Shown here: positions 5,726 through 39,322 of the stretch, one piece after another
Position numbering within the stretch: the first letter of the stretch is position 1
Layout of the letters: each line of letters begins with the position of its first letter
Source of the DNA: Patescibacteria group bacterium
GTDB taxonomy: Bacteria > Patescibacteriota > Microgenomatia > UBA1400 > JAHJAY01
Length of the DNA stretch: 45,315 nt
Direction: 5' to 3'
NCBI GenBank assembly: GCA_018813815.1
Contig: JAHJAY010000019.1
Span: forward strand, 1-45,315
Position numbers and translations under genes: made by a program
Notes under the pieces: generated by a model
What the model was told of the DNA's origin: nothing
Database searches by the model: none
The model's input: only the letters and a program-made list of their open reading frames with translations

Positions 5726-6696
5726 GAAAAATTTTAATTACCGGCGGCGCTGGCTTTATCGGCTCTAATTTAGCCGCTTATTGGTTAAAACAAGGACGCT
5801 TGCTCAGGCTTTATGATAATCTTTCTCGCTTAGGCTCAGAGAAAAATTTGGCCTGGTTGAAAAAACAAGGCAATTTTGAATTAGTTAGGGGTGGGGTTGA
5901 AGATTGGCCGCAGCTAAAAAAAGCTTTCAAGGGGATTGATGCAGTGGTCCATTTAGCTGGCCAGGTAGCAGTAACCACTTCTTTAAAATATCCCCGCCAA
6001 GATTTTGAAGCTAACGCCCTGGGTAGTTTTAATGTTTTGGAAGCGGCCCGAGAGCAAAAAAATCCGCCCCTGGTTGTCTATGCTTCAACTAATAAAGTAT
6101 ATGGTGATTTACAAGGAACCAAGTTAACCAACGGCGTTAACGAAGATTTTAAAGTTGATCTTTATTCACCCTATGGTTGTTCAAAAGGCCTAGGCGATTT
6201 GTATACTCTTGATTATGCTCGCTGCTTTAAGTTAAGAACTGTGGTTCTTCGCCAATCCTGCATTTATGGACCACGGCAGTTCGGCAATGAAGATCAGGGG
6301 TGGGTGGCTCATTTTGCTTGGTCAATTATTCGGGGGGAGCCGATTACTATTTATGGTGACGGTCAACAAACGCGCGACCTGTTGTATATTGATGATTTAA
6401 TTAAGCTTTATGACCAGATTGTTAGTCAACCTGGTTTAGCGATAGGCCAGGTGTTTAATGTGGGCGGCGGTAAATCAAATAAGTTTTCTTTATTACAAAT
6501 GATTGATTTGTTAGTTAAATTAATTGGTCAACCAGCCTCTTTAAAGTTTAAAGAGGCCCGAACCGGCGATCAGCCGGTTTATTGTAGTAATTTAACCAAA
6601 GTTATCAGTCGACTCGGCTGGCAACCGACGACCAGTTGCCAAGCCGGAACCAAACAGCTGGTTAATTGGATACAAAATGAGCGCAAAAAATCCTAA
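5722..6696 (+). CDS. NAD-dependent sugar epimerase/dehydratase (SDR family, GalE-like)
   Basis: MRKILITGGAGFIGSNLAAYWL Rossmann motif; YSPYGCSKG (YxxxK). Confidence 0.9.
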   Translation: MRKILITGGAGFIGSNLAAYWLKQGRLLRLYDNLSRLGSEKNLAWLKKQGNFELVRGGVEDWPQLKKAFKGIDAVVHLAGQVAVTTSLKYPRQDFEANALGSFNVLEAAREQKNPPLVVYASTNKVYGDLQGTKLTNGVNEDFKVDLYSPYGCSKGLGDLYTLDYARCFKLRTVVLRQSCIYGPRQFGNEDQGWVAHFAWSIIRGEPITIYGDGQQTRDLLYIDDLIKLYDQIVSQPGLAIGQVFNVGGGKSNKFSLLQMIDLLVKLIGQPASLKFKEARTGDQPVYCSNLTKVISRLGWQPTTSCQAGTKQLVNWIQNERKKS

Positions 6697-7930
6697 ACCG
6701 AAAATTGCCATTTTTCATTGTGGTTTTGTTTATTCCGGTGGCGGTGAGCGGATTGTTTTAGAAGAAGCGCTGGGTTTAAAAAAACGCGGCTATCAAGTTA
6801 AAGTTTATGCACCCACGATCGATGTTAAGTTATGCTATCCTCAACTGCTGAAAAAGCTGAATGTCAAGATGTTTTTACCCAGCTTTATTGAATGGTTGCC
6901 TTTTCGAGATGCCTTACGTATGGCGGCAACCAGCTTATTAGCCCCGTTTTTAGCGATAAATTTTCGAGACAGCGATATATTTCTGGGGGCGAATCAACCT
7001 GGTGCCTGGATTGCTTTTTGTATGGCGAAGGTTTTGAAAAAGCCTTATTTGGTTTACCTTAATCAGCCAAACCGTTTGATTTATCCTAGAAAAATTGACA
7101 AGCAAACCGGCTGGCAAAATCGCAAAGATTATTATCTTTTAGCTAAAGTAATTAAGTTGATTCATTCATTTATTCGTTGGGCGGATCGGGTTTCGATTAA
7201 TTCCTGCCAGAGTTTATTAGTTAATGGTGATTACATTGGCCAGATTATTACTCAGATTTATGGTCAGGATGTTGTGGTTTGTCCTGGCGGAGTTTATCCT
7301 CAGAAGAGGTTAATCAAACAAAATGTTTTTAAGGGCCAATTTAAAATTAAAAATCACTTGATCGTTAAACCCTATATTTTAATTACTAACCGCCACGAAC
7401 CCCAAAAGCGGTTTGATTATGTACTTAAGGCCCTGAAAAAGGTTTTAAATAAATTTCCTCAGGTTGAGCTGGTTATTCCCGGGCCATTTACTCTTTATAC
7501 TTTGGATTTAATTGCTTTAGCCAGAAAACTTAAAATTAACCATAAGGTGAAATTTATTGGTCAGATAACTGAGGTTGATTTGCAAAAATTATATTCTCAA
7601 GCAGTAGTTTATTGTTATCCTTCGCCTGAAGAAGACTTTGGCCTCGGGCCATTAGAAGCCGGCGCTTGGGGAGTGCCAACTGTAGCTTGGAATCATGCCG
7701 GCCCCGGCGTTACCGTTAAATCAAATCAGACCGGCTATTTGGCCAAACCCTATGAGATTAACGATTATGCTGATAAGATTCTTAAATTAATTGATTATCC
7801 CCAGCAGCGGGCGAAAATGGGTTTGGCTGCTTGGAATTGGACAAAAAACCAATTTTCTTGGCAGCGCCACATTAACATTTTGGAAAGGGAAATAAAGCAG
7901 ACAATTGTTAGTTATTTGAGAAGGCGGTAA
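6677..7930 (+). CDS. Glycosyltransferase family 4 (ALG2-like)
   Basis: CGFVYSGGGERIVLEEALGL N-term; ITNRHEPQKRFDYVLKAL; PSPEEDFGLGPLEAGAWGVPTVAWNHAGP GT4 signature. Confidence 0.85.
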   Translation: MSAKNPKPKIAIFHCGFVYSGGGERIVLEEALGLKKRGYQVKVYAPTIDVKLCYPQLLKKLNVKMFLPSFIEWLPFRDALRMAATSLLAPFLAINFRDSDIFLGANQPGAWIAFCMAKVLKKPYLVYLNQPNRLIYPRKIDKQTGWQNRKDYYLLAKVIKLIHSFIRWADRVSINSCQSLLVNGDYIGQIITQIYGQDVVVCPGGVYPQKRLIKQNVFKGQFKIKNHLIVKPYILITNRHEPQKRFDYVLKALKKVLNKFPQVELVIPGPFTLYTLDLIALARKLKINHKVKFIGQITEVDLQKLYSQAVVYCYPSPEEDFGLGPLEAGAWGVPTVAWNHAGPGVTVKSNQTGYLAKPYEINDYADKILKLIDYPQQRAKMGLAAWNWTKNQFSWQRHINILEREIKQTIVSYLRRR

Positions 7931-7939
7931 AATGAATCT

Positions 7940-9541
7940 ATGTTAGAGAATTTTTTGGATAAAATTTTATCAGAAGATGATAAAGTAATTGCTAAACTTA
8001 AAAAGCAACACCAGAAAAAGCAGAAAAAATCAATCAACTGGCGTACAATTGCTATAGCGGTATTGCTTTTTAGTCTAGCGAGTGCGATCAGGTTATACTT
8101 GCTGTTTAAAATTGAGGATCCTCAAAATGCCCATCCGGGTTGGTATGAAGATACTTATCATCATTGGCAGATTGCCTATTTATCCTTGACAACTGGTTTT
8201 AAACAAAGCTTTTTACGTCTTTGGGATCTTAAAGGAATGGAATATTTTTGGGGGGTATGGCATCCGTTGATTTTGGCCGGCCTAATGAAATTAACCGGTT
8301 CAAGTAGTATTGTAATTGCTCGTTTATTAAGTCTATTTTGCGGCAGTTTTAATATTGTCCTGATTTATATTTTAACTAAACGTTATTTTGGTAAACATGC
8401 TGGTCTGGCCGCTGCCCTGATTGCCGCTCTAAATCCGGTGGCAATTTATTCCGATATTTCCGGTATGCAGGAGCCGTTGGGGATAAGTATGTTTTTAATC
8501 GGTAGTTATTTTTGGCCAAATAAAGCCGTTTGGGCCGGAATTTTTTGGATGATTGCCGGTATGACTAGAGCTGAATATTGGTTAATCGGTCTGGTTGTAA
8601 TGGCTGTTGCCTTACTTAGTCAAGAGAAGCTAGAGAGAAAAATTTTAGCGGCAATTAGCTATAGCGGCTTAATGTTGGTTTATATGAAGTATCTTTTAGA
8701 CAAAACCGGCAATGCGATTTATCCGATGTATTGGAATTTTATGGGCAATATGAAAGGGGAATGGCAAGCTGATATCCTGCCAACAGTTGAACAACAACTA
8801 ATTCAAAAGATTTATGTGATTGTTTTAATCGTTGCAGTTTTATTTATGTTGGTTTTATTGAAAAAAAGACCTAAATTTTCTCCCTTTTTTTCTATTGGAA
8901 TTGTTAACTGGGTAATTTTAGGTGTTGCTGTTGGTTTATCTAAATATCTTTTGAGCTATTTGTCCCGTTTTTGGGTTGATCGGGTAATGGTTTTGCCATA
9001 TATGTTTTTGGCTGTTTGGTTAGCCAGCTTGATTTTTAAAGTTTTTGGTCGGCGTCTGCTAAGCATTGTTGGTTGGCTGGTTGTCGGGGTAATAATTTTA
9101 ACTTCTCAGCTTACTTGGCAGCCAATTTGGCATTGGCGTGGAATTACTCATGGTCAATGGGAGAGCAAACAGTCCTTGGCTGAGGCAGTTGCTGGTTATT
9201 ACCAGGGTGGCAAAATTTTATGGCTCGAGAACCATCCGGCGGCAACTTACTGGTTAGTTTATGATCAAGGAATAGCAGGAGAGAACATTATTGGCCAAAT
9301 GTTTGATCCTTATTTTTATATGGAAGGGGAGTCTTATGATAATTGGGGCGAAAATCGGGAGATTGTTCTTGATTGGTTAATCGCCGAAGATATTCGTCTT
9401 ATGGCTTTTTTTGGCGACCGCGAACGCTATGTTACCCTGGTTGAACGTGAGGCAGAATATTTTGATCAACTAACTTTTGATCCGCGCTGGAATCTTTACA
9501 TTTATCAAGTTAAACCTGAGTTGATTAATGAAACAATCTAG
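7940..9541 (+). CDS. Membrane glycosyltransferase, GT39/PMT-like (GT-C fold)
   Basis: Multi-TM; acidic ...GWYEDTYHHWQ in the first loop, then SSIVIARLLSLFCGSFNIVLIYILTKRYFG typical of GT-C proteins. Confidence 0.65.
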   Translation: MLENFLDKILSEDDKVIAKLKKQHQKKQKKSINWRTIAIAVLLFSLASAIRLYLLFKIEDPQNAHPGWYEDTYHHWQIAYLSLTTGFKQSFLRLWDLKGMEYFWGVWHPLILAGLMKLTGSSSIVIARLLSLFCGSFNIVLIYILTKRYFGKHAGLAAALIAALNPVAIYSDISGMQEPLGISMFLIGSYFWPNKAVWAGIFWMIAGMTRAEYWLIGLVVMAVALLSQEKLERKILAAISYSGLMLVYMKYLLDKTGNAIYPMYWNFMGNMKGEWQADILPTVEQQLIQKIYVIVLIVAVLFMLVLLKKRPKFSPFFSIGIVNWVILGVAVGLSKYLLSYLSRFWVDRVMVLPYMFLAVWLASLIFKVFGRRLLSIVGWLVVGVIILTSQLTWQPIWHWRGITHGQWESKQSLAEAVAGYYQGGKILWLENHPAATYWLVYDQGIAGENIIGQMFDPYFYMEGESYDNWGENREIVLDWLIAEDIRLMAFFGDRERYVTLVEREAEYFDQLTFDPRWNLYIYQVKPELINETI

Positions 9542-10331
9542 CCGCTCAATCAAAATTTGGGGAGCGAATACAGTTCGGGTGACACCGAGGCATTTCGGCG
9601 CTTTGAGACTCAAGTATGCGCTTGAGGCCTTAGTTAATATTCAGGGCAGGGTTTTGGAAATTGGTTGTGGGGCCGGCGCTTTTACCCGGGCAATCAAACA
9701 TTATCGACCGGATTTGGAAATTCTCGGTACGGATATTAATCCTGATGTAATTAAATTAGCCCAGAAAAAAGACCGGAAAAATGTTTATCAAAAAGCCGAT
9801 GTTGAGCAATTAAGTTTTAAAGCCAACTCTTTTGATGCGGTTTTGGCTTTTGATGTAATTGAACATTTAAAAAATCCTCAACTGGCTTTTTCAGAGATTT
9901 TTCGAGTTTTAAAACCCGGGGGCCGGCTCCATGTTTCAATTCCTTTAGAGGCTAATTTTTTGACTTTACATGGTTTAGGTTTACGCTTGGGTTTTAAACC
10001 TAAGCAGGTTTATGCTGATCATTGCCAACAGTTTTGTTTAAACGACATTGTCGGCTTGCTTAAAAAAGCTGGTTTTAACTCAATTACTTGGTGTTATAGC
10101 GGTTATTTTTTCTTTCAACTAATGGATTTTATTTACTTTAGCTGGTTAAGTTTAATAAAAAAATCCACCCATCATACGGTTGAAGGTTATGTTGCAACCG
10201 CTTCACCGGGGTTGCTGAAAAGCCTTCTGAGTGGTTTAGCGGCGGTTTTAGCTCTGATTTCCTATTTTGAATCATACTTATTAAAAAAGTTACCCGGGCA
10301 AATCGGCCATTTTTCCGCTGAGAAAAAATGA
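9528..10331 (+). CDS. Class I SAM-dependent methyltransferase
   Basis: VLEIGCGAGAFTRAI; DAVLAFDVIEHLKNP; FRVLKPGGRLHVSIP. Confidence 0.85.
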   Translation: MKQSSRSIKIWGANTVRVTPRHFGALRLKYALEALVNIQGRVLEIGCGAGAFTRAIKHYRPDLEILGTDINPDVIKLAQKKDRKNVYQKADVEQLSFKANSFDAVLAFDVIEHLKNPQLAFSEIFRVLKPGGRLHVSIPLEANFLTLHGLGLRLGFKPKQVYADHCQQFCLNDIVGLLKKAGFNSITWCYSGYFFFQLMDFIYFSWLSLIKKSTHHTVEGYVATASPGLLKSLLSGLAAVLALISYFESYLLKKLPGQIGHFSAEKK

Positions 10332-13309
10332 AAAAACTAATCAAGCTTATTTGGTTGGCAATCAAGAGTTTTTGGCAATTTGGCCATTTAGTTATCGCTA
10401 TAGCAATTATTGCTGCGATCGCTTATTTTCTTGGCTATCCTTACCTTCAAGCCATCAGAGGGAGCGACAGCTTTTATCACCTAACTAATGTTTTTTGGGT
10501 TAATAAGTTTTTCCCCAAACTTCCTTATTGGTATCCACTGCAAAATGGTGGCGTAGTGCCAATTTGGGGCTACCCTCATTTAACCTATTTTTTAGTGGTG
10601 ATTATTCATCGACTTACTTCATTGAGCTTAATTAGCGCCTGGCAAGTTTTGGGTTGGCTGTCAGTGCCGTTAACTGCTTTTGGTCTTTATCTTTTTGTGG
10701 CCACCCGGTTAAAAAATCAAACCATGGCCTTGATTGGTTCAGTTTTGTATTTATTAGCGCCAATTACTTGGGTTTGGTTATTTGATTGGGGATTTTATAC
10801 TGAGTCAGTTTCTTATATTTTTGTTTTTCCTACTTTAATTTTCTTGGACACTTTTTTGGTAAAGAAAAATTGGCTTGGCCGGTTGTCTTTATTTTTAACC
10901 TTGATTTTATTGGTTTTGACATTTTTAGCCCACCCGGCGACTTTTTTTGTTACTGTCGTTATCGGAGCAGTACTTATTTTTTTCCAAAACTTATCAATAA
11001 AACCCCGGTCTTTTAGCCGGATTGCCGGCAAGTCAGTTTTAACCCCTTTACTTTTATTAAGCGCGACTTTGTTATTGCTTGGTTTTATCATTTTTGACTT
11101 TTATTCTTATGCTGGCCGGGTGTCTCCAGCACCAGCAAAACACGATAAGGCAGTTTTTCTAGAAGGTTATCCGACTCCGGTGGGTTCACTGCTGGGGTTA
11201 GAAATTATTCCCTCAACTGAATTTAAAGTCGGCCATCGCAATATTGTTGTGCCCATGGCTATTTGGCTGCCGGCGATTGCCGGGATAGTGGCTGGTTTGA
11301 TTTATGCACCCAAGATTTTTGGTTTGGGCTTATTAGCTGCTTGGCCGGTGGTTTTTTTCCGCTGGCCGATTTTATCCTGGTATGCTCACCGCTATATTCC
11401 TTTTATTGGTTATGTAATCAATCATCGCACAATTTTAATTTTTATTCGTTTGTTGGCTCCGGTAGTGGCCGCTTTTGGTATTTGGGGTGTGTTTAAACTT
11501 CTTATTGATTTGCCGACTTTTTGGATAAAAAAGGGCTGGCTCTTGAGATTTAGGCAATTGATTACTGTTGTTTTTACCAGCATTGCTTCAATTGGTTTGG
11601 CCGGCTATTTAATTGTTTTTTTAGCTAACAAGCCTGATAAATTATGGCAGCCAACTCAAGTGCGTTACGGGCCGCAGGCTTTTGACATTCGGGACCCGTT
11701 TTTTAAGATTGAAGATAAGGAAGAATTGGCTAAGTTAAAGCCGGAAGAGACAGGCAAGAACTTTATGGCTTATTTGCAAGATATAAATAATTGGCCCCGA
11801 CCCAAGCTGGTAGAAGAGCTGGACCAGCCGCTCACCGGATTTTCTGATTTTATTGCCCAACACAAGGACGAGCCGTTTTTAAGGGTTGATGTTTCACCCT
11901 TTTTGGGTGGAGTAGTCCAAACCTTAAATCTTGAAAGCGAAATCAGCCAGATAAATCTTTATGCGATTACTTTATCTTTGCTTGAGCCTTATTGGGGCTA
12001 TGAGCAGCAGGTTTTCTTTTCAGAAAACACTGGCAATACAATTAATGTTAATAATTTGGCCCAGTGGTTTGGTATTAAGTATTTGTTTTTAAGCCCCCAG
12101 TTGGATTTTATTGATAAGTATGCGGCTGATACGGATCACTGGCAGGAAATTGATGAAGTTGGTATTTGGCAGTTTAGCCAGCCAACTGAGCTTTATTCTT
12201 GGACCGTAGATAAGCCTGTTGTTTTAGTAATTGGCTCAACCGAAAAAGCTGCTTTTGAACCGGTTTTTCGAGCTTCAGTTAATGGTGCTTATAATTATGC
12301 TGACGGTTTGTTGGTTCAAGGCAAAGCCAATGTTGATGATTATTCACTGGCCGAACTTAAACAATTTGATGTTCTATTGTTATTTGGTTATAACTACAAA
12401 AGTCAAAGCAAAGCTTATCGTCTACTGGATCAATATGTTGCCCAAGGCGGTAATTTGTTTATCAGTACGGGCTGGCAGTATGTTGATGCTGATTGGCAGT
12501 TGGATAAAGCGCCGGATTTTTTCCCGGTAACTGATTTGATTTGGTCAACTGACTATGGAGCAGGGGAACAGTTGGTTTTAGAAGATCAAGCCATTGGCGG
12601 ACAGCTTCAAGTGGCTGATTTTGCTCCTTTAGCTTGGAATGATAATGCCTGGGGGATTTCTATTCCGGTAGTTGGTAAGCGTGACTGGGCGAGAACGGTT
12701 TTAAGTATTAGCGGCAAGCCGTTGGTGGCAGCCGGCGAATATGGCGAAGGCAAAGTGATTTGGACTGGTTTAAATATTTTTGGCCATTTGAACACTTATG
12801 ATTTTAATGAGGCGGAAATGGTTTTTTTGGGTAATCTGTTGCGTTGGTTCGGCGCTGGGTCTTTGGCTGAAGAACAAGCTCAAAGCCAAAAATTGCTGGT
12901 TACCCGAGAGCATCCTGATCAAGTCGATTTTGAGTTTCAAGCAACCGCTGATCAACCCTCAATTCTTTATTGGCGGGAAGCTGAATTTCCCAATTGGCAA
13001 GCAACCCTGTCTCACCCTAGCGGTGCCAAAGAAAAGATTGACATTTATCGGGCTGGGCCTGGTTTTATGTTAATGCGTTTGCCGCCGTTGGAGCAGGGCA
13101 GTAGACTTCAGCTGGCTTTTAAACCAGGTGGCAGAACCTATTTGGGTAGAATTTTAAGCTTGTTTGCTTTAATAATTTTGTTGATTTATGTTGTAATTGG
13201 CAAACGAATGACTTTTGTGATTAACCGTTTTTTAACCCTGTTTCGCCAGCGGTTCAAAAAAAGATTCAGCAAATTAAAACAAACCTTTGATAATGAAGAA
13301 GACTACTAA
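10328..13309 (+). CDS. Giant membrane protein, paralog 1 (GT-C/PTPS-related-type TM region plus GATase-like extracytoplasmic region)
   Basis: 993 aa; PKLPYWYPLQNGGVVPIWGYPHLTYF; C-terminal FDVLLLFGYNYKSQSKAYRLLDQYVAQGGNLFISTGWQYVDADWQLD; shared with 13293 and 17257. Confidence 0.75.
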   Translation: MKKLIKLIWLAIKSFWQFGHLVIAIAIIAAIAYFLGYPYLQAIRGSDSFYHLTNVFWVNKFFPKLPYWYPLQNGGVVPIWGYPHLTYFLVVIIHRLTSLSLISAWQVLGWLSVPLTAFGLYLFVATRLKNQTMALIGSVLYLLAPITWVWLFDWGFYTESVSYIFVFPTLIFLDTFLVKKNWLGRLSLFLTLILLVLTFLAHPATFFVTVVIGAVLIFFQNLSIKPRSFSRIAGKSVLTPLLLLSATLLLLGFIIFDFYSYAGRVSPAPAKHDKAVFLEGYPTPVGSLLGLEIIPSTEFKVGHRNIVVPMAIWLPAIAGIVAGLIYAPKIFGLGLLAAWPVVFFRWPILSWYAHRYIPFIGYVINHRTILIFIRLLAPVVAAFGIWGVFKLLIDLPTFWIKKGWLLRFRQLITVVFTSIASIGLAGYLIVFLANKPDKLWQPTQVRYGPQAFDIRDPFFKIEDKEELAKLKPEETGKNFMAYLQDINNWPRPKLVEELDQPLTGFSDFIAQHKDEPFLRVDVSPFLGGVVQTLNLESEISQINLYAITLSLLEPYWGYEQQVFFSENTGNTINVNNLAQWFGIKYLFLSPQLDFIDKYAADTDHWQEIDEVGIWQFSQPTELYSWTVDKPVVLVIGSTEKAAFEPVFRASVNGAYNYADGLLVQGKANVDDYSLAELKQFDVLLLFGYNYKSQSKAYRLLDQYVAQGGNLFISTGWQYVDADWQLDKAPDFFPVTDLIWSTDYGAGEQLVLEDQAIGGQLQVADFAPLAWNDNAWGISIPVVGKRDWARTVLSISGKPLVAAGEYGEGKVIWTGLNIFGHLNTYDFNEAEMVFLGNLLRWFGAGSLAEEQAQSQKLLVTREHPDQVDFEFQATADQPSILYWREAEFPNWQATLSHPSGAKEKIDIYRAGPGFMLMRLPPLEQGSRLQLAFKPGGRTYLGRILSLFALIILLIYVVIGKRMTFVINRFLTLFRQRFKKRFSKLKQTFDNEEDY

Positions 13310-16300
13310 ATTATTGGTTTGGTTGGTTGAGGCAATAGTTCGGCTGGGCTATATGGTTATTGCCATAGTAATAATTGTGGCCATAGCCTACTGGTTGGGC
13401 TATGACTTTCTTTTTAGTCTCAAAGGTGGTGATACGGCCCACAACCTGTCAATTATTTACTGGTTTAATCATTGGTATCCCCAAATTCCCAAATGGTACC
13501 CGCTTCAGGGCGGGGGAGTTTCTTTGGTTCATGGTTATCATTTTTTAGCTCATTTAATGACTGTTTGGCTTCATCGTTTAACCAGCCTAAGTTTAGAAAA
13601 TGCTTATCAAGCGTTGGGTTTTGCCTCTGTGCCATTAACTGCTTTAGGGATTTATTTTTTTGTTTGGACCCGTTTAAAAAATCAAACCGCTGCCTTGCTG
13701 GCCGGTGTTTTTTATTTTCTTTCACCCATAACTTGGGTTTGGTTGTTTGATTGGGGTTTTTATGGTGAAGCGGTATCTTATTTTTTTATTCCACCGGCGC
13801 TAATCTTTTTTGACATTTTTTTCACTGCCTGGCTTGAACGCCGGGTTAATTTTTGGGCTCGATTGAGCTTGATAGTCGGCGTAGTTTTTTTAATGTTGCT
13901 TTGGATGACTCACGCGATTGCTTTTCTGGGTATAGTTTTCTTTTTCCCGGTTTACGGCCTGTTGTATCCTTTAATTTCAACTAAAACCCAGCGGTTCAAA
14001 AACGCCTTCCGGGGGTTAGTGGCGGTGTTTATTTTTTTAGCGGCAACTTATTTATTAGCTGCTTTCCATGAGCTTCACTTTCAATACTATTCTTTACAAT
14101 CGCAAACTGCGGGTCAGGCAAGTAGGGAATTTTTTTTAACTGATGCCGCTGAATGGTATTTTCGGCCCTTTTTAAGTTTAGGTGAGATTCCGGTTGAAAA
14201 CCGGCGTTATGCTGAGCGCAATGTTGCTTTAGCAGTGCCGGTTTGGGCCCTGGCTTTATTGGGTTTAATTGCCGCTTGGCCGCTGTCGAAAAAATTGTTT
14301 GTTATTGGACTTTATAGTTTGTTTAGTTTTATTTTTATTTACAACCCAATACCGGTTTGGCGGATTCTTAATTTAACCGGCGCTCAGCATTATCGCCCTT
14401 TGATTATTTGCTTAAGAGTGTTTTTACCGATACTGGCGGCTTTTGGAGTAGCCGCTTTGCCTCAATTAGCCGGATCAATTTGCTTTTTTTGGCGCCGGTT
14501 TTTAAATAAAAGTCTGGCTCGGCTAGTTTTGATTCTCCAGTCACTATTAGTCGCTGTTGCCACTTTAACTCTTGGGATTGTAGTGATTGTTGGTTGTCGT
14601 TATTATGCCACTCTACCGTCATATATCCGTTATGGTCCACAGCTGATTAATTTTGAATTGGTTGATGATCAGCAGTGGCCCTATCTTTGCCCTGACCAAC
14701 AAAACCCTTTTAAGCCTCGGTTTTGTCAAATGCCGACAAAAACCAAGATTGATTTGAAACAACTTAGCTATCTTTGTGAACCTTGGCAAGCTGACTTAAC
14801 ATTGCCAAGTAAGCCCGAGTTTTGTGAGAAAAAGCCGAGTGGGGCGAGTTTAGATGAGTTGTTTAATCAGTGTTATAACAATACCGCCTCAGCTGAAACC
14901 ACTCATTTCTGCCCAGCAGTGCTTCAACCCTGGCAACTAAAATTGTCCTTAGCTAATTGGCCTCAACCAAAATTAACCGCTGATCGCTCAATTTTTAAAT
15001 CTGGATTAGAAGAGGAATTTTTGTCGCTTAAAACCGAAAATGAACCTGTCCGGCTTGATGTTTCACCTAATCTTGGCGGTGTGACCCAAACCTTTAACAT
15101 GGAAAATTATAGCGATAGTATGCTTAATCTTTGGGGTTATCAAGCCTCTTTGAACCATTCTTACTGGGGCTATCAACAGAACAGTTTTTATGGCAAAGGC
15201 AATAGTCCGGCGCAGGTGGCCAATGTGGCTCAATGGTTTGGCGCTCAGTATGTTTTACTTAATGAGGGGGCTGATCCCCCGGAAAACTTTACTCAAGATC
15301 CTGAACATTGGCAGGAGCTTAGTCCCAGCATTTACCGGTTTAAAACCCGGCTCAAACCTTATAGTTATACTACTAATAAACCAGTGATTTTGGTGATTGC
15401 CAGTCATGAGCAGGCGGCTTATGAAACTTTTTTCCGCCTGGCTAATCTTGGAGTTTTACCTTATGAGTCAGCCTTTTTAGTTTTAGGTCAAGAGCGGGTT
15501 GATGCTTATTCTTTGGCTGAACTTGAACAGTTTGATGCGCTGGTTTTGTTCGGTTACAGTTACAAGCGTCAAGCTAAGGCCTTTGGTTTATTAGACAACT
15601 ATCTTAAGCAGGGGGGTAAGGTTTTTCTTTCAACTGGTTGGCAGTATATTGATGCTGATTGGCAACTGGAAAACGCGCCGGATTTTATGCCAGTGACTGC
15701 TTTAAGCTGGTCAAAAAATATAGATTCAAGTGCTGAGTTTAAACTTGAAGATGATTCGTTGAACCAAATCAAAACCAGCCAATTTGACCCGCTGGTTTGG
15801 GGGGATCAGCCATGGGGAGTTTCTTTAGCGGCTCAAGTTCGGCCTTGGGCTAAAACTCTGCTTAGTATCAATAGCCAGCCGATTGTTGTCAGTGGTGATT
15901 ATGGTCAGGGGAAGATTGTGTGGACCGGGCTTAATTGGCCGGGGCACATCAGCACTTATAATGATAATCCTGAAGAAATAAAATTTTTACAAACAGTTTT
16001 TCAAGCTTTATTGACTAGTGAGGTTAATGATGAATTAGTGCAGACAGAGCAGGTGACTGTTAAAAGAGACTTTCCTGATAAAGTTGAAGTGGTCTTTTCC
16101 CAAACAGCTGAGCCGGGTAATTTTTATTGGCGCGAAAGCTATCATCCTGATTGGCGAGCTTATTGGTTGAGTAATGATAAAAAAACCCGGTTGCCAATCT
16201 ACCGGGCGGGCCCGCTTTATCAACTGGTTTTTACTCCTGCGGCTAAGGTTGGTGACCGTTTGATTTTTGAGTATCACCCCCGATTAAGAGGGGTTCTGGC

Positions 16301-16457
16301 CAATCTAATTTCCGCTTTGACTTTAATTGGTTTGTTAATTTATTTAATTAAAGGTAGTCTGGCCTTTGGTTGGTCAAAAAAAGCTCTGGGAAAAATTCAT
16401 CAGCCAATCAGCAAAAAAATTAAAACTTGGCGTCAAACATGGGAGGAAGACGAGTGA
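13293..16457 (+). CDS. Giant membrane protein, paralog 2, with a cysteine-pair insertion
   Basis: ~1054 aa; IPKWYPLQGGGVSLVHGYHFLAH; FDALVLFGYSYKRQAKAFGLLDNYLKQGGKVFLSTGWQYIDADWQLE. ORF track starts at TTG 13287; ATG 13293 preferred. Confidence 0.75.
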   Translation: MKKTTKLLVWLVEAIVRLGYMVIAIVIIVAIAYWLGYDFLFSLKGGDTAHNLSIIYWFNHWYPQIPKWYPLQGGGVSLVHGYHFLAHLMTVWLHRLTSLSLENAYQALGFASVPLTALGIYFFVWTRLKNQTAALLAGVFYFLSPITWVWLFDWGFYGEAVSYFFIPPALIFFDIFFTAWLERRVNFWARLSLIVGVVFLMLLWMTHAIAFLGIVFFFPVYGLLYPLISTKTQRFKNAFRGLVAVFIFLAATYLLAAFHELHFQYYSLQSQTAGQASREFFLTDAAEWYFRPFLSLGEIPVENRRYAERNVALAVPVWALALLGLIAAWPLSKKLFVIGLYSLFSFIFIYNPIPVWRILNLTGAQHYRPLIICLRVFLPILAAFGVAALPQLAGSICFFWRRFLNKSLARLVLILQSLLVAVATLTLGIVVIVGCRYYATLPSYIRYGPQLINFELVDDQQWPYLCPDQQNPFKPRFCQMPTKTKIDLKQLSYLCEPWQADLTLPSKPEFCEKKPSGASLDELFNQCYNNTASAETTHFCPAVLQPWQLKLSLANWPQPKLTADRSIFKSGLEEEFLSLKTENEPVRLDVSPNLGGVTQTFNMENYSDSMLNLWGYQASLNHSYWGYQQNSFYGKGNSPAQVANVAQWFGAQYVLLNEGADPPENFTQDPEHWQELSPSIYRFKTRLKPYSYTTNKPVILVIASHEQAAYETFFRLANLGVLPYESAFLVLGQERVDAYSLAELEQFDALVLFGYSYKRQAKAFGLLDNYLKQGGKVFLSTGWQYIDADWQLENAPDFMPVTALSWSKNIDSSAEFKLEDDSLNQIKTSQFDPLVWGDQPWGVSLAAQVRPWAKTLLSINSQPIVVSGDYGQGKIVWTGLNWPGHISTYNDNPEEIKFLQTVFQALLTSEVNDELVQTEQVTVKRDFPDKVEVVFSQTAEPGNFYWRESYHPDWRAYWLSNDKKTRLPIYRAGPLYQLVFTPAAKVGDRLIFEYHPRLRGVLANLISALTLIGLLIYLIKGSLAFGWSKKALGKIHQPISKKIKTWRQTWEEDE

Positions 16458-17254
16458 GTCAGGTATCAGCGGAAATTTATTTGCAGCGTTATCTTAGGCT
16501 GACGCCATTATCTCTTGCTTTACAGCGGGCAGTTGAAGCAAAACATTTGGCTAGTGTGGTGCTTAAGCAGCCGACTTTAGATCTCGGTTGTGGTTTTGGT
16601 GAGTTTGCCCAAGTTTTTTTTGACCAGCCAGTGGCGGTTGGTGTTGATATTTGCCCTAAAAAAATCAACCAAGCCAAAAAAACTGGCAAGTATCTTAAAT
16701 TGGTTCAAGCTGATGCTTGTCAATTACCTTTCAAAACAGAGAGTTTTAATTCAGTAATTTCGGTGAGTGCTTTGGAACATATGACCAATCCGAGTAAGGT
16801 TTTAAAAGAAGTCTTGCGGGTTTTAAAGCCGGAAGGTCAATTAGTTTTGACTGTAGTAACTGACAAGTGGGAACAGAACCTATTTTATCCGGAGTTGTTA
16901 CAAAAAGTGGGCTTAAAAAAACTGGCTGATAAATATCGACAGCTATTTAACCAAGTGTTTAAGCATCAACAATTATTGAGTCAATGGGAATGGGAAAAAC
17001 ACGTCCGTCAAGCTGGCTTTGAACTTAAAGTTTCTCAAGCAATAGTTAGTCCGCAGATTGCTCGTTTTTTTGATTTGTTTTTAATCACTGCCTGGCCCGC
17101 TCAGCTGGCCAAAAAGATGGTTGGCCGTCGGGTCGTCTGGCGACCATTGTTTATGATAAGCTTATTAACAAAGGTTTTTAAAAAATATGTTGACGAAACC
17201 GAGCCGGTAGTTGGCACTAATCTTTTTTTAGTGGCGATAAAGTCAGGGAAATAA
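16427..17254 (+). CDS. Class I SAM-dependent methyltransferase
   Basis: LDLGCGFGEFAQVF; SVISVSALEHMTNPSKVLKEVLRVLKPEGQLVLTV. Start may be ATG 16439 or GTG 16454. Confidence 0.85.
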   Translation: MASNMGGRRVSQVSAEIYLQRYLRLTPLSLALQRAVEAKHLASVVLKQPTLDLGCGFGEFAQVFFDQPVAVGVDICPKKINQAKKTGKYLKLVQADACQLPFKTESFNSVISVSALEHMTNPSKVLKEVLRVLKPEGQLVLTVVTDKWEQNLFYPELLQKVGLKKLADKYRQLFNQVFKHQQLLSQWEWEKHVRQAGFELKVSQAIVSPQIARFFDLFLITAWPAQLAKKMVGRRVVWRPLFMISLLTKVFKKYVDETEPVVGTNLFLVAIKSGK

Positions 17255-17256
17255 AA

Positions 17257-20200
17257 ATGGCTAAAAAACTATTAAAGTATTTTAAAAACAGCCTAGTTTT
17301 TTTAGGACGCTTAAGTTATTTAGCGTTGGGGAATGGTTTGATTTTGCTGGTGGCCTATTTATTTGCTCACGGAATTTTAGACGGCAAGATCAATCAAGAT
17401 GTGGGCATTTTGGTTGGTAATGACAGCGGCTTTGCTTTGTCACTGGTTTATTGGTTTGACCGATTTTTTCCCAAGATTCCTCTTTGGTACCCTTTGCAAG
17501 GCATGGGTGTTTCTCTTTTTCATAGCTCGCCCATGGCATTGACCTTTTTAATAATTTTACTTAAGCGTTTAACTCAACTGACTGCGGTTGAGTGGTTTCG
17601 GATTTTATCTTTTGTTACCTTTCCTTTAACTGCTTTTGGAATTTATCTTTGGACATGGGTACGTCTTAAGCACCAAACGATTGCTTTAATTGCCGCTTTA
17701 TTCTTTTTGCTTTCTCAGGCTTCTTGGCTTTTTCAAGCCCTGCATGGTATTTTTGCCCAGAGTTTTTCTCTTGTTTTAGTGGCGCCGGTTTTTTTGTTTT
17801 TTGATTTATTTTTAGAGCGTTGGCTAAAAAAAGAAGGCCAGCGGTTTTCCAGCCGGGTGTTTTTAATCCTGACCATAGGGTTGCTCGGAGTGAATTTTTT
17901 AATCCATGTTGTTGGCGGCGCCATGACAGCTATTGCTTTGATAGCTTGGAGCGGGTTGCGTTTCGGCTTGGTTAAGGGGAAAAGAATTGGTTTTAAATGG
18001 CAGATGCGATCCGGTCTAAGGGGATTTGTTCTGGCGGCGGCGGTTGTCGTTTTAAGTGTTAGCTTAATGGCTTTTTGGCTGGTGCCATTTTCCAGCTACA
18101 GCCGTTTGGCCAATCGGGAGGGGCTTAATACCCGCAGTGTTGGTCAAATTCAAGAAGAGTCGCTAAAAATAAAATCGCTTTTAGGAATTCAAACCCTGGG
18201 CGAGGGTATTTATCGTTATGATTTCTTTTTCTTTGCCGCGCCGGTTTTAGTCTTTTTTGTCATTGGCGTACTGTTGGCTTTTTGGCAGCGGGACAAAAAA
18301 ATAATCAGCCTGGTTTTGATTATTTTCTTTTTTGTTTTTTTGGCCACCAGTCCGATTTATTGGCCCTCTTTAGCTTCATTATTTCAATTTTTCTTTACCA
18401 CAGTTTATTTCCGCGCCTTAATTCCGGTGCTGATTTTTTTGCCGATTGTGGCTGCTTGGGGGAGTTGGACGCTGGTGGCCAGTCTAATTCTGACTCCCTT
18501 TGACCGTTTGACCCAAAAGGCTATGAAGAGAAAAATGCCTGGATGGTTATCACTGAATCTGGTAATTGTTAAGAGTTTTCTTCAACTTATGGTTGCGGGG
18601 CTGGTTTTGAGTTTAGTCTTTTGGTCAGTGGTTAATTTAGACCATCAGCCGCCGCCAAATCCGGATTTTGATAAGAAAAACTATAAATATCAGTTTCAAC
18701 CCTATGGGCCTTCATTGCACAATAATTTTGATACTTTTCTGGAAAACCCCAGAGATTTATTGATCAATTTGCCTAAAATTGAGCTAAGTCGGATAGGCAT
18801 TGAAAATAGAAATGTACTCAACCAGGCGCTAGATGATTGGTTGGCGATTGATAAAACCACGATTCTTGATGTTTCTCCTTATGCTGCTGGCGGAGCGATT
18901 ATGCAGGGAGTTGGTTTAACCAGCGATGCCCGGTTTATTAATCTTTATCATTATTATGCTTCTTTAATCCACCGGATGTGGGGTTATCAGGCAGGAGTGT
19001 TTTACGGTCAAGAGCCGCTCTACCAAAGAACCAATCTTTTAACTGAATTAACTGATTGGTTCGGTTTAAAATATGCTGTTTTGGTGCCCGACATTGACCC
19101 AATTACCAGTAAATATCAAGCTACTGGTTGGCAGCCATTGAAAGAGTTTAATGATTATTCTTTGCGCCAAAAACCAGAACTTGGCCCAACCGTTGGTTCC
19201 TGGGGGATTGTGGCTTGGGAAAATCCTCAGCCCAACGGGCTTATTAGTTTGAGTCAGCGGCCAGTAATTTTGGTGATTAGTGATTTTAGCAAAGAAGGCT
19301 ATGATCAGATTTTTCGGGCAGCTAATTTGGGAGCTTTGCCCTATAAAAAAGCTTGGTTAGTTGAGGGCAGTAAAAACATTGATGATTATTCGCTTGATGA
19401 ATTGGCTGAATTTGATGGCGTGATTCTTCACGGTTATGGTTATAAAAATCGGGTTCGGGCTTGGGAGCGGCTCCAAGAGTATGTTCAAGCAGGGGGCCGC
19501 TTATTTGTTGATACTGGTTGGCAATTTGTGGCTAAAGATTGGGGCAACAAATCCAGCCCGGAATCAAGCTATCTTTTACCCAATTTATTGCCGGTAACTA
19601 AAACCCACTGGGCTGATATTGGTACTTCCTGGGATGGAGTGGCGTTGGCTCAAGACTTAGCGCCAGTTAATTGGGCTCAGTTTGATCTGCCTGCTTGGCA
19701 AGGTAGCCCTTGGGGTATGGCTTTGGCTCAAAGAGCTGATTTGCGCTCCGGAGCCAAACCATTGGTTTGGAAAAATGATGAGATCATGATGGCCCAGTGG
19801 TCAGTTGGCGACGGTGAGGTAATCTGGTCAGGGATAAACATTTTTAGCCATATTAATCAAGAGCTGAATCAGGCAGAAGGTGAATTTTTAGGCACGATAT
19901 TGACAAGTTTTTACTCTTCAAAAGATCAGAGTGAACTTGAGGGGTTTAATTATGAGCGGTTTTCACCGGATGAAGCCAATTTTAGTTTTAACCAAGCTTT
20001 GGATCAACCAGTTTGGCTTTTGTTCCGCGAGGCATCTTCGCCTTATTGGCAAGCTAATTTTGTTAGTGGCGACAAAAAAATCAAATTACCTATTTGGCGA
20101 GCCGGACCGGGATTTGTTTTGGTTAAACTTAATGCAGTTAAACCGGGCGATCAACTTCAGCTTCAGGCACGCTTGAATTTTAAAGACGGTTTATTAGCCA

Positions 20201-20355
20201 AAACAATTTCCCTAATTACTTTCCTTTGGCTGTTAGCTTATTTGGTTTTGGGTCAGCGGGTTAATTTTCTTACTCGTTGGCGTCTGGTTAAAAACTGGCG
20301 ACAGAAGTGGCAGGATCAGGCTAAAAGCCTAAGCACTAATGAGGAAGACTACTAA
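17257..20355 (+). CDS. Giant membrane protein, paralog 3
   Basis: 1032 aa; IPLWYPLQGMGVSLFHSSPMAL; FDGVILHGYGYKNRVRAWERLQEYVQAGGRLFVDTGWQFVAKDWG. Confidence 0.75.
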   Translation: MAKKLLKYFKNSLVFLGRLSYLALGNGLILLVAYLFAHGILDGKINQDVGILVGNDSGFALSLVYWFDRFFPKIPLWYPLQGMGVSLFHSSPMALTFLIILLKRLTQLTAVEWFRILSFVTFPLTAFGIYLWTWVRLKHQTIALIAALFFLLSQASWLFQALHGIFAQSFSLVLVAPVFLFFDLFLERWLKKEGQRFSSRVFLILTIGLLGVNFLIHVVGGAMTAIALIAWSGLRFGLVKGKRIGFKWQMRSGLRGFVLAAAVVVLSVSLMAFWLVPFSSYSRLANREGLNTRSVGQIQEESLKIKSLLGIQTLGEGIYRYDFFFFAAPVLVFFVIGVLLAFWQRDKKIISLVLIIFFFVFLATSPIYWPSLASLFQFFFTTVYFRALIPVLIFLPIVAAWGSWTLVASLILTPFDRLTQKAMKRKMPGWLSLNLVIVKSFLQLMVAGLVLSLVFWSVVNLDHQPPPNPDFDKKNYKYQFQPYGPSLHNNFDTFLENPRDLLINLPKIELSRIGIENRNVLNQALDDWLAIDKTTILDVSPYAAGGAIMQGVGLTSDARFINLYHYYASLIHRMWGYQAGVFYGQEPLYQRTNLLTELTDWFGLKYAVLVPDIDPITSKYQATGWQPLKEFNDYSLRQKPELGPTVGSWGIVAWENPQPNGLISLSQRPVILVISDFSKEGYDQIFRAANLGALPYKKAWLVEGSKNIDDYSLDELAEFDGVILHGYGYKNRVRAWERLQEYVQAGGRLFVDTGWQFVAKDWGNKSSPESSYLLPNLLPVTKTHWADIGTSWDGVALAQDLAPVNWAQFDLPAWQGSPWGMALAQRADLRSGAKPLVWKNDEIMMAQWSVGDGEVIWSGINIFSHINQELNQAEGEFLGTILTSFYSSKDQSELEGFNYERFSPDEANFSFNQALDQPVWLLFREASSPYWQANFVSGDKKIKLPIWRAGPGFVLVKLNAVKPGDQLQLQARLNFKDGLLAKTISLITFLWLLAYLVLGQRVNFLTRWRLVKNWRQKWQDQAKSLSTNEEDY

Positions 20356-35453: not shown

Positions 35454-36104
35454 ATGAACAATCAATTCAAAGATATTAAAGTTTTAGTTTGGGATCTTGA
35501 CGGCACTCTTTATAAAAACACGCTGACATTAAGCGGGGCGATTCATGCTAATGCTATCAAGGCAGTTAAAAAAGCCAATTCGCTTTCTGATGAAGAAGCG
35601 GAGCAATTATTTCAGCAAACTTACAAACAGTTAGCCAGCTCAACTCAAACCATGATTCACTGCGGCGTTGATCGGGCTTATGCTTTGTCAGGCAAATGGT
35701 ATGCTGAGGTTCAGTTAAAACACTTACAGCACAACCAGCGCTTAATTAATATGTTTGACCGGCTTAAGCCTTGGCGGCATATTATTAACACTAATGGCGC
35801 TAACCTAGTTACTCAAAAAAAACTGCGCTTATTGGGTTTATCTGCAGACATTTTTGCCAAGATTTTTACTAATGCGGATATGTTTGGCAAGTTAAAACCT
35901 GACTTAATGCCGTTTAAAGCCATGCTTGATTACACCGGCTTGTCGGCTGAACAGCATTTAATGATTGGCGACCGGCCGGAAACCGATTTATTGCCTGCCA
36001 AAAAGCTCGGCATGAAAACATGTCTGGTTTGGGGTGAGTCAGCTGAGGCGGATGTGAGCGTAAAAACAGTTTATGAGGTTAGCGATTTACTTATGGCAGA
36101 TTGA
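35454..36104 (+). CDS. HAD-superfamily hydrolase (phosphatase)
   Basis: VLVWDLDGTLYKNT motif I; INTNGA motif II; MIGDRPETDLLPAKKLGMKT motif IV. Start refined from 35418. Confidence 0.85.
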   Translation: MNNQFKDIKVLVWDLDGTLYKNTLTLSGAIHANAIKAVKKANSLSDEEAEQLFQQTYKQLASSTQTMIHCGVDRAYALSGKWYAEVQLKHLQHNQRLINMFDRLKPWRHIINTNGANLVTQKKLRLLGLSADIFAKIFTNADMFGKLKPDLMPFKAMLDYTGLSAEQHLMIGDRPETDLLPAKKLGMKTCLVWGESAEADVSVKTVYEVSDLLMAD

Positions 36105-37104
36105 GAAGCTGGTGCGTAGTTTCAGCCATAGCTTCCGGACCAGCACTTTTATTAATAAAGCCCTGGGCGCCTGTTTTTCGGTATGTATCTTCGTAGTCAG
36201 CGGGATTGTCGTCAGGATCTAAATCACTCATGCCAATAATTATTGCCGGTGGAATTCCTAATTGTTGTTCAAGTTCGCGAATGGCAGTAGTACATTTATA
36301 GCCACTAAAATAGGTTGAATCCAAATCTAGGGCAGTGTCAGTATAAATAAGGTCATAGGTTTGACCACCTCTGAGGGCATTTAAAAAACTTTCGCAGGTT
36401 GGATAATGATGAAGATTTTTGCTTGCAAAAGATAGTAGAGTTTTAAGCCATTCCATTCTTGTTTCTGCAAAATCCTGATTGTCTTCAATAAAAGCGACTC
36501 TCATTTGTTGAGGGTCGCGGGCTTCGCCGCCGCGTTCCTGCGCTTGAGTGTTTTCAATTTCTTGTTGTAAAGCATTAACATCATCAACTATGTAGACCGC
36601 CCGGATTACTGGATACCTTGAACGGTCAATTGTTTGCCAGCCAAGAAATTCACCATCCTGCATAATCGGAATCTGCCAGGGGCCTTGAATTTGATCTTGA
36701 ATACCACCGGTGGCTCCAGAAAAAATAGCTTCTGCCGGCATTAATACACCTTGAAATAAAATCTGGCCTATCTGACTGCCAGCCGCATAAACAGCTAAAG
36801 CAGCTTCAGAGATGGCTGGAATTAGAGAATTTAAATCAGTTACCAATCTGTCTAAGGGCAATTGAGCTTCTAATTGATAATAAGTATATGCTTGTCCCAA
36901 TCTCGCGGTTTCACTCATTAACACCATGCCGTCTACGCCTTCAACTTGCTCAAATACCCAACCCGGGGGAAGTTCAGTAGCGCTGGCCTGTTCAATTGGT
37001 TGAGGCTTACTGCAGCCAGAAAGCAACACAGAAGCTACAAGTAAATTTAGACCAAGGGCTACGGTCAGCCCAGCCCTGCCAATGTTTCGTCCAAAATCTT
37101 TCAT
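36091..37104 (-). CDS. Lipoprotein with C-terminal response-regulator receiver (REC)-like domain
   Basis: N-term hydrophobic stretch plus lipobox LLSGC; C-term MRVAFIEDNQDF...YDLIYTDTALD...IIIGMSD...GAQGFINKSAGPEAM has REC landmarks ED, D, S, K. Confidence 0.65.
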   Translation of the reverse strand: MKDFGRNIGRAGLTVALGLNLLVASVLLSGCSKPQPIEQASATELPPGWVFEQVEGVDGMVLMSETARLGQAYTYYQLEAQLPLDRLVTDLNSLIPAISEAALAVYAAGSQIGQILFQGVLMPAEAIFSGATGGIQDQIQGPWQIPIMQDGEFLGWQTIDRSRYPVIRAVYIVDDVNALQQEIENTQAQERGGEARDPQQMRVAFIEDNQDFAETRMEWLKTLLSFASKNLHHYPTCESFLNALRGGQTYDLIYTDTALDLDSTYFSGYKCTTAIRELEQQLGIPPAIIIGMSDLDPDDNPADYEDTYRKTGAQGFINKSAGPEAMAETTHQLLNLP

Positions 37105-37162
37105 TGCTTGCTACTTTAGAAGATGTTTATCCGCCCTGCTTGATGTTCTAACTGACATAAAT

Positions 37163-37191
37163 TTGTCAGCCTGACAGAAAAATGATAGAAT
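37163..37191 (+). promoter_or_regulatory. Promoter TTGTCA-N17-TAGAAT for the wHTH gene
   Basis: -35 at 37163-37168, -10 at 37186-37191 (TGaTAGAAT extended -10). Confidence 0.5.
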
Positions 37192-37223
37192 CGTTCATCC
37201 TGCCCAAAAGAGCAGGATTTTTT

Positions 37224-38348
37224 ATGAGCAAATTATTACCGCCAATTACGCCAGAGAGTTTTGAGAAAATGGTTAGCCAATGGGCGCGAATCGTTAAGTA
37301 CCGCGAGTCAGGGAGTATTTATTATTATTCTAAATCCGGACTACTTTACCGCTTGCGTCAGTTGTTTGCGGATGAAAAACTTTACAGCAAATACTTTGGT
37401 GGGAAAAAGATTCAAATTGTTGATTTAGAATCTGTGCTTATCGAAGATCAGGAAGACGTTGTGAGAGTTTTTGAAAAATCCAAATCAAATATTTTTTTTA
37501 TTTTGGCGGCTGATAAAATTTGGCGCGAACAACAAAACAAGCTATTGGATTATTTAGCTAACCTGGGAATTAATTTCAACATCTCCTTTTTATTATTTTT
37601 TCAAGCTGATTTTAACCATCCGGATATTGAGTCAATTTTTCAAACTAAAAATCTTTTTTTACAAAACTTGGTTTTTCATCCTTTGCCATCAAAAAAAGAC
37701 GGTCGCCAGCTTATTAGATATTTAGAAAATAAATGGCAGGTAAAAATTGATCAAAAAACCCAACAAATCATTGTTGATCAATGTGGTGGCTATCTTTGGT
37801 TGATTAAAGAAGCTGTTCGTTATTGGCGGGATAACAACCAGCTGTCTTTTGACCACGAAGATATGAACTTACGGCTTCAATTAATTTGGAAATACTTGTT
37901 GGATTCAGAAAAACAGGTTTTAGAAAAAGTAGTTTTAGGTAATAAAGATTTTAATTCTCTAGAAAAACACAGCTTTGAATTTTTACAAAAAACCGACTGG
38001 TTGCCGCTTTGGCCGCTTTTGGAAAAATTTATTCACCATCAACTTAAAAAAATTGATTTAAGAGTAACTGAAAACGGGCAGATTGTTTTAAAAGAAGTTT
38101 TGATAGACAGAATGTTTTCACCTAAAGAACGGCGAGTTTTAAAGTTTTTATTAAGTAAAAAAGACCGTTTGGTTTCCCGGGACGAAATAGCTCAAGCTGT
38201 TTTGGGTAATCAGTGGGAGAATAATTATTCTGATTGGGCAATTGACCAGACGATATCACGTTTACGCAAGAAATTAGCTGGTTTAAGTATTTCTCCGAAA
38301 ATTATCAAAACTATTCGTGGCAAAGGCCTTGTTTTTAAAGAAGGCTAA
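37224..38348 (+). CDS. Winged-helix (OmpR/PhoB-type) transcriptional regulator with a divergent ATPase-like N-terminal region
   Basis: C-term FSPKERRVLKFLLSKKDRLVSRDEIAQAVLG...SDWAIDQTISRLRKKL...IKTIRGKGLVFK matches the Trans_reg_C pattern. Start refined from 37182. Confidence 0.75.
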   Translation: MSKLLPPITPESFEKMVSQWARIVKYRESGSIYYYSKSGLLYRLRQLFADEKLYSKYFGGKKIQIVDLESVLIEDQEDVVRVFEKSKSNIFFILAADKIWREQQNKLLDYLANLGINFNISFLLFFQADFNHPDIESIFQTKNLFLQNLVFHPLPSKKDGRQLIRYLENKWQVKIDQKTQQIIVDQCGGYLWLIKEAVRYWRDNNQLSFDHEDMNLRLQLIWKYLLDSEKQVLEKVVLGNKDFNSLEKHSFEFLQKTDWLPLWPLLEKFIHHQLKKIDLRVTENGQIVLKEVLIDRMFSPKERRVLKFLLSKKDRLVSRDEIAQAVLGNQWENNYSDWAIDQTISRLRKKLAGLSISPKIIKTIRGKGLVFKEG

Positions 38349-38350
38349 AT

Positions 38351-39322
38351 ATGTTAGAGCGCAATGTTTTAAAGGAGGGAATTTTTTGGCAAGGTAGTTT
38401 TGCCCAAGCCATGCGGCAGGAAGAGGTTTTTCCAAAAGCTTCAGAAAAAGTGCTTGATTTGGTAGAAGGTTTATTAGTTAGCTGTGCTAGATTTTGGTGG
38501 CCGGTTTACAAAGATGGATCAATAGCGATAATAAGGGGCAGTGTGGTTAAAAATTTGATCAGGCCGTCAGAGGTTGGACCAAAATTGCCGGCCATGTTTC
38601 AGGCTTTTTACGACGGTTTAGATCCAGATTCGCTGGTTCAGAATCCGATTTGGCAAGAAGCTTTGGAAGAGGGAATAAAGGGTCAGGACTTAGACGTTCG
38701 CTTTCTTTTTCAACCAGGTAGAAACTTCAACAATATGGCTCGAGTATTTATTGATCGCTTGGGTTTGCCGGATATTGAAGGAAAAAAAGCAGTTTGGGAA
38801 TTGGAAAACATTACCATTAAACTGCAAGAAAATACAATTCCTGTTAAAGGGGGTAAAGAGAGACACAACTGGAAAGTTGAATTTTGGGAGCGCGATCAAG
38901 GGGAAGAAAAGTTAACTTTTTGGTTAGATATCGGCGAGCAGGCTTTTTGGGATTATGATAATGATGCGCGCTTAGGTTATGCTGCTACTTATCATGATTT
39001 AATGATGATTCTGGGGCTTACTTTGAATACAAACAATAGCTTGCTTTTGCAAATTGATCAATTGACGGCAGATGTTTTTAATACAAAGGATCGTCCCATG
39101 TCTAGTCTTACATCTGTTGGAATCCTATCCTGTTTAAGAGTTTTGGTTGGTCACTATCTTTGGGGAGTTCACGTAGATGATTATTTCTGGCAATTAGCGG
39201 GACGTTTTTTAACTGAATTTTCTTTGGGAAGAGAAGCTGAACATTTAAAATATCTTTTATTGTTGCACTTTTTAGATCCGGATAAGTTTGACGATCCAGA
39301 CAATTATGTTCCAATTAATTAA
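38351..39322 (+). CDS. Hypothetical protein
   Basis: 323-aa ORF directly after the wHTH gene (2-nt gap); family not recognised. Confidence 0.6.
   Translation: MLERNVLKEGIFWQGSFAQAMRQEEVFPKASEKVLDLVEGLLVSCARFWWPVYKDGSIAIIRGSVVKNLIRPSEVGPKLPAMFQAFYDGLDPDSLVQNPIWQEALEEGIKGQDLDVRFLFQPGRNFNNMARVFIDRLGLPDIEGKKAVWELENITIKLQENTIPVKGGKERHNWKVEFWERDQGEEKLTFWLDIGEQAFWDYDNDARLGYAATYHDLMMILGLTLNTNNSLLLQIDQLTADVFNTKDRPMSSLTSVGILSCLRVLVGHYLWGVHVDDYFWQLAGRFLTEFSLGREAEHLKYLLLLHFLDPDKFDDPDNYVPIN

Follow-up and report, generated by a model that had tools for sequence, protein, structure and literature searches.

The window, the whole stretch of 45,315 nucleotides analyzed here (contig JAHJAY010000019.1 of a Patescibacteria group bacterium), encodes a 337-amino-acid protein in which a lipoprotein signal is joined, through a middle domain and a linker, to a receiver (REC) domain. 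Judging from its relatives, this lipoprotein-REC fusion is a real gene and an evolutionarily repeated one. By structure prediction, its C-terminal domain is a genuine REC fold with a complete active site (E207/D208, D256, S293, and K319).

The REC module is known from cytoplasmic proteins; since its phosphorylation depends on kinases that use ATP, it is regarded as confined to the cytoplasm. The component parts of the fusion are known, and their combination appears to be new to us. A phrase search of open papers found no published periplasmic, extracellular, extracytoplasmic, or lipoprotein receiver, which is not proof that there is none; the sole match was a paper about CitA, a sensor, in which the matching text appears to concern something else. 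If the protein is exported, a receiver module would work across the membrane, on the cell surface; if it is not, a signal of the lipoprotein type would be able to keep a regulator within the cell. Patescibacteria have few two-component genes, and the fusion bears on how such bacteria regulate their surface.

An uninterrupted gene and its relatives

The following features were assigned to the fusion gene.

36091-37104 (-): lipoprotein-REC fusion gene, 337 aa, ATG start; architecture common to L048 and L049
37012-37104 (-): predicted signal peptide with lipobox LLSGC, putative lipidation at Cys31 (sequence and lipoprotein-signal rule; Lgt and LspA in the genome)
36580-36972 (-): middle domain, residues 45-175; common to L048, L049, and L071
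36505-36579 (-): linker, residues 176-200; predicted helix at 176-190, then hydrophilic, with no transmembrane stretch
36103-36504 (-): REC domain, residues 201-334 (AlphaFold, Foldseek)
36481-36486 (-): acidic pair E207-D208 (FIED)
36394-36396 (-): Cys237, kept in 4/4 lipoprotein RECs
36337-36339 (-): phospho-acceptor position D256 (YTD), aligned in 18/18 rows
36292-36294 (-): Cys271, kept in 4/4 lipoprotein RECs
36226-36228 (-): Ser/Thr position S293 (IGMS)
36148-36150 (-): conserved Lys K319 (INKS)

The gene forms one open frame with no internal stops. On the 5' side of the ATG the frame stays open for two codons only (339 codons in total), and no alternative start codon precedes the hydrophobic stretch. 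The same fusion of lipoprotein signal, middle domain, and REC was found beside a divergent winged-helix regulator gene in two Candidatus Gottesmanbacteria genomes, G514 (L048:5762-6589) and G497 (L049:5619-6602), which are separate public records (MFJU01000042.1 and LCFP01000003.1). Both genomes belong to the same class as the window genome and are 93 to 98% complete. These relatives were reached via homologues of the neighboring gene at 37182-38348 and not via single-sequence search. Pairwise BLASTP of the window protein gave 1e-8 with G497 and, for the middle domain only, 4e-9 with G598, both values referring to a tiny database.

A first scan of genome contigs with the single fusion protein yielded no match, nor did phages, and a single-sequence search of 380 genomes of the phylum with the N-terminal part found none either. 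The last result would be expected if two separate genes, one for a lipoprotein and one for a REC protein, had been joined by frameshift, mis-assembly, or chance. Such an origin is, however, ruled out by the presence of the same fusion with the same divergent neighbor in the separate records of G497 and G514, and we assign the artefact a negligible probability. The original prediction had called for a check on a missed frameshift near 36504-36560 and for a search for the fusion in relatives; the frame there is continuous, and the fusion recurs in L048 and L049 and, in a variant form, in L075.

The variant came from a profile search of 357 genomes of the class, which added two proteins. One of them, L075:1486-2502 (-), from a genome (G039) of the same order as the window, represents a second kind of lipoprotein-REC fusion, with an ALTAC lipobox and the REC motifs VVIEDN, VVDQ, AYTS, and LNKKS. 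Its middle part was considered as a relative of the window's middle domain and rejected as unrelated on comparison. This fusion lies near glycosyltransferase genes and has no regulator gene beside it. The other protein, L071:1384-2739 (+) in G598, is encoded divergently from a regulator gene and carries a lipoprotein signal, a window-type middle domain, and a non-REC C-terminus of 240 aa. A methyltransferase (MTase) reading of that C-terminus, made by eye, found no support from Pfam or PDB. The L071 signal is Tat-like (RRDFLK), and the G598 genome is 85% complete; a Tat route is unlikely, as TatC was not found in six genomes, G598 included.

Neither the middle domain (about 130 aa) nor the region of residues 32-175 as a whole had a Pfam, NCBIfam, or PDB match by single-sequence search. 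The motifs YY, IG, GxIQDxxxGP, DG, and IDR/INR run across the middle domain in the window, L048, L049, and L071. REC might be an exchangeable passenger in modular surface lipoproteins that hold the export signal and middle domain constant and swap the C-terminus, serving recognition or surface variation with no signaling role. Consistent with this, G598 keeps the middle domain with an unrelated C-terminus (240 aa) in a locus of the same kind, the divergent ORF found in this gene neighborhood in G581 is a different, masked one, and downstream partner genes also vary at their C-termini. However, three of the four known members of the middle-domain family carry REC, and a passive passenger would not need its catalytic residues kept. 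We consider the passenger role improbable.

The receiver domain and its pocket

The REC part begins at Met201 (36504). Because an ATG lies exactly on the domain boundary, a free cytoplasmic REC could be made from it, either in addition to the lipoprotein or in its place. Against this, L048 and L049 have no Met at the boundary, their nearest possible starts being GTG, and inspection by eye found no clear ribosome-binding site ahead of 36504; we regard such an internal start as very improbable.

The whole protein did not match Pfam PF00072. The REC fragment alone matched Response_reg weakly (E 0.0017, 18.9 bits), below the gathering score of 30.2 bits, which is a detection cut-off with no meaning as a biological feature. 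Among relatives, the PF00072 score was 26.9 bits for L049 and 40.3 bits for the second REC of L052. Single-sequence searches of Pfam, NCBIfam, and PDB gave no more than weak results for REC. The fold was settled by AlphaFold and Foldseek. From a single sequence, AlphaFold modeled the full-length protein poorly (mean pLDDT of 40); the model built with an 18-row alignment had pLDDT above 90 over most of residues 201-325. The latter is a (beta-alpha)5 fold composed of beta1 (203-206), alpha1 (210-224), beta2 (231-234), alpha2 (237-245), beta3 (252-256), alpha3 (268-282), beta4 (288-293), alpha4 (301-310), beta5 (315-318), and alpha5 (323-334). In the model, D256 lies at the end of beta3, S293 at the end of beta4, and K319 after beta5, the same placement as in CheY-type receivers. 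The best Foldseek matches in the PDB were receivers, including DrrB with BeF3 (3nns_A; E 1.6e-7, TM 0.83 by target length), with GacS D1, PhoB, and CheY further among the leading matches. The suggestion that the fold might prove not to be REC thus fails, and the intact REC-like domain of the original prediction is upheld by the fold and by the residues E207/D208, D256, S293, and K319.

D208, D256, and G268 are invariant across the 18-row alignment. With only about 22 to 25% identity to the window REC, all four lipoprotein RECs keep E/D207, D208, D256, and K319, which suggests that the pocket is under selection. The window REC shares the (beta-alpha)5 fold, acidic pair, phospho-Asp, Ser/Thr, and Lys with PF00072 receivers (CheY, PhoB, GacS-D1, and DrrB), but differs from them in scoring below the gathering threshold as a single sequence and in being fused behind a lipoprotein signal. 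Unlike in classical response regulators, REC is the last domain of the protein, with no output domain C-terminal to it and no cognate kinase nearby.

In a tree of 49 RECs, the four lipoprotein RECs and three signal-less RECs formed one seven-member subclade (91/84), which would fit one fusion event or several. The pair Cys237 and Cys271 is present in 4/4 lipoprotein RECs as opposed to 1/45 other RECs (Fisher p 2e-5), the exception being the second REC of L052, a signal-less close relative. In the window and L048 proteins, cysteines of this pair are the only ones besides the lipobox Cys. This pattern would suit a disulfide; we treat the idea as weak, since the pair follows the tree and VKOR was not found in the window genome.

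Signal peptide, lipidation, and topology

The N-terminus of the window protein (MKDFGRNIGRAGLTVALGLNLLVASVLLSGC) has basic residues K2, R6, and R10, a hydrophobic core, and the lipobox LLSGC ending at Cys31. A simple lipoprotein-signal rule, written for this analysis, was tested on 33 window ORFs and on shuffled sequences. It fired on a single ORF, that of the fusion, in line with the signal and lipobox claimed originally, and on 0.14% of N-terminus shuffles and 0.015% of whole-protein shuffles. In each of the four lipoprotein-REC proteins, a short basic n-region is followed by a hydrophobic core and, directly after it, the lipobox Cys. This anatomy predicts an N-in/C-out orientation. The window genome encodes two Lgt homologues and one LspA, which makes lipidation plausible. 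The sequence predicts an outer-face lipoprotein. Of the exported lipoprotein with a new topology that the original prediction put forward, the fusion, the REC fold, and their recurrence now stand, and export is the best reading of the signal-peptide anatomy.

The basic n-region, hydrophobic core, and LLSGC lipobox are shared with lipoproteins that are substrates of Lgt and LspA; the REC module sets the window protein apart from other bacterial lipoproteins. Membrane lipoproteins tied to two-component parts, on the sensor side, include QseG and RcsF of E. coli (PMC6075780, PMC11709261), which resemble the present protein in that link but have no REC domain.

The reading we lean toward, and judge somewhat probable, is a lipoprotein on the outer face whose receiver has been repurposed. 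The protein would be exported by Sec and then anchored to the outside of the cytoplasmic membrane in the Microgenomatia cell, where the lineage-specific middle domain and the hydrophilic linker would present the REC-fold domain outside. Outside, the domain would most likely serve as a binding or switching module that keeps its acidic Mg2+ pocket, rather than as the partner that a kinase phosphorylates in an ordinary two-component pair. That the pocket is kept speaks against a dead fold. An ordinary phosphorelay is disfavored because no phosphodonor is known for a receiver phospho-site outside the cell. It is a long shot that the lipid-tethered receiver is switched there by aspartyl phosphorylation, whether from small phosphodonors or from a so far unknown kinase at the surface. 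In L071 the middle domain follows a Tat-like lipoprotein signal and precedes a C-terminus that is not REC, a finding that was counted for export; the signal-less RECs that accompany a homologous regulator in L052 hint at a cytoplasmic partnership and were counted against it.

Alternatively, the N-terminus may merely tether the protein, either because the signal stays uncleaved as an anchor or because another membrane segment, within the middle domain, leads the chain back, and the REC domain would be a cytoplasmic, detached receiver for the divergent regulator. The fully kept active site would suit this arrangement. So would a borderline hydrophobic stretch in the window (residues 103-121) and L071 (residues 112-130), with -dGoct of +1.6 and +1.4 and KD of 1.2 to 1.3; if residues 103-121 spanned the membrane, REC would be back inside. 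However, the equivalent stretch in L048 and L049 is not membrane-like (-dGoct of -0.7 to -4, partly charged), and neither protein has a second convincing transmembrane stretch. L075 has two further hydrophobic stretches, one within its REC domain. Moreover, a lipobox Cys ends the core in 4/4 fusions, which would be needless for a mere anchor. The cytoplasm-facing uncleaved anchor, held in reserve by the original prediction, is weakened by these lipoboxes and by the presence of Lgt and LspA, but is still a rival.

The divergent regulator and surrounding genes

The original prediction did not include the relatives of the fusion or the winged-helix regulator gene that is conserved on its divergent side. 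Three features were recorded next to the fusion gene.

37182-38348 (+): divergent regulator, NTPase-like domain and OmpR-type winged helix (Trans_reg_C, PF00486, E 3.7e-15)
38351-39322 (+): next gene after the regulator; matches no family, relatives' copies usually longer
37152-37176 (divergent intergenic region): CTGACA-N6-TGTCAG-N-CTGACA repeats, a candidate operator; chance possible

Homologues of the regulator were found in 169 of 374 genomes of the class. By eye, the P-loop of the window copy is degenerate; that of the G598 homologue is intact (GINSIGKT). A winged helix of the OmpR type would normally come after a REC, and this regulator has no REC of its own, as might be expected if the fusion supplied a receiver in the cytoplasm. 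REC ORFs lie at most about 1.1 kb away on the divergent side in the window, L048, L049, L052, and L106. Those of L052 and L106 stand as separate ORFs with no signal, and the L052 RECs belong to the same subfamily as the lipoprotein RECs. It is mainly these signal-less ORFs that keep a cytoplasmic receiver alive as an explanation. However, the five loci are a minority of the 63 regulator loci; most have other divergent genes, such as those for CAP/SCP-like secreted proteins or enzymes. Overall, we regard a cytoplasm-facing REC as unlikely, though worth serious attention.

The lipoprotein gene is divergent from the regulator gene in the window, L048, L049, and L071, a pairing that distinguishes these from most of the 63 Microgenomatia regulator loci examined. 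For the favored outer-face lipoprotein, expression would probably be set by this divergently transcribed regulator.

As originally stated, no histidine kinase is encoded on the window contig. Three HATPase_c proteins are encoded elsewhere in the genome, on contigs C6, C7, and C45; two of them (C6 and C45) lie next to canonical response regulators. Two response regulators in the genome score above the Pfam cut-off.

A perfect terminator-like hairpin (ATCCTGC-loop-GCAGGAT, followed by a T run) occupies positions 37197-37223, directly before an ATG at 37224. Its position inside the annotated start of the regulator ORF suggests that the true start is 37224. The hairpin could possibly act in attenuation; it was found at 1/63 regulator loci and is not shared by the others.

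The gene downstream of the regulator ends in an MTase domain by Pfam in L048:1398-4181 (-) and with deaminase-like motifs, seen by eye, in L049:2858-4192 (-) and L050:3147-4280 (-); the window copy (38351-39322) has neither end. In G581, the gene neighborhood of the Gottesmanbacteria fusions holds a divergent ORF of different sequence with masked bases, L139:5810-6709 (+), and the regulator there is short. In G597, two stand-alone REC ORFs lie in tandem at L088:4686-6004 (+), and a small ORF resembling a lipoprotein (SKDIKSALIFMGIFILGASLFVSCS) comes directly after them. No link of the window genes to a defense system was found. Elsewhere in the window, positions 4400-20355 (+) hold a cluster of probable membrane enzymes: three or more large ORFs there match PTPS_related membrane proteins (PF10131), and two of these matches exceed the cut-off.
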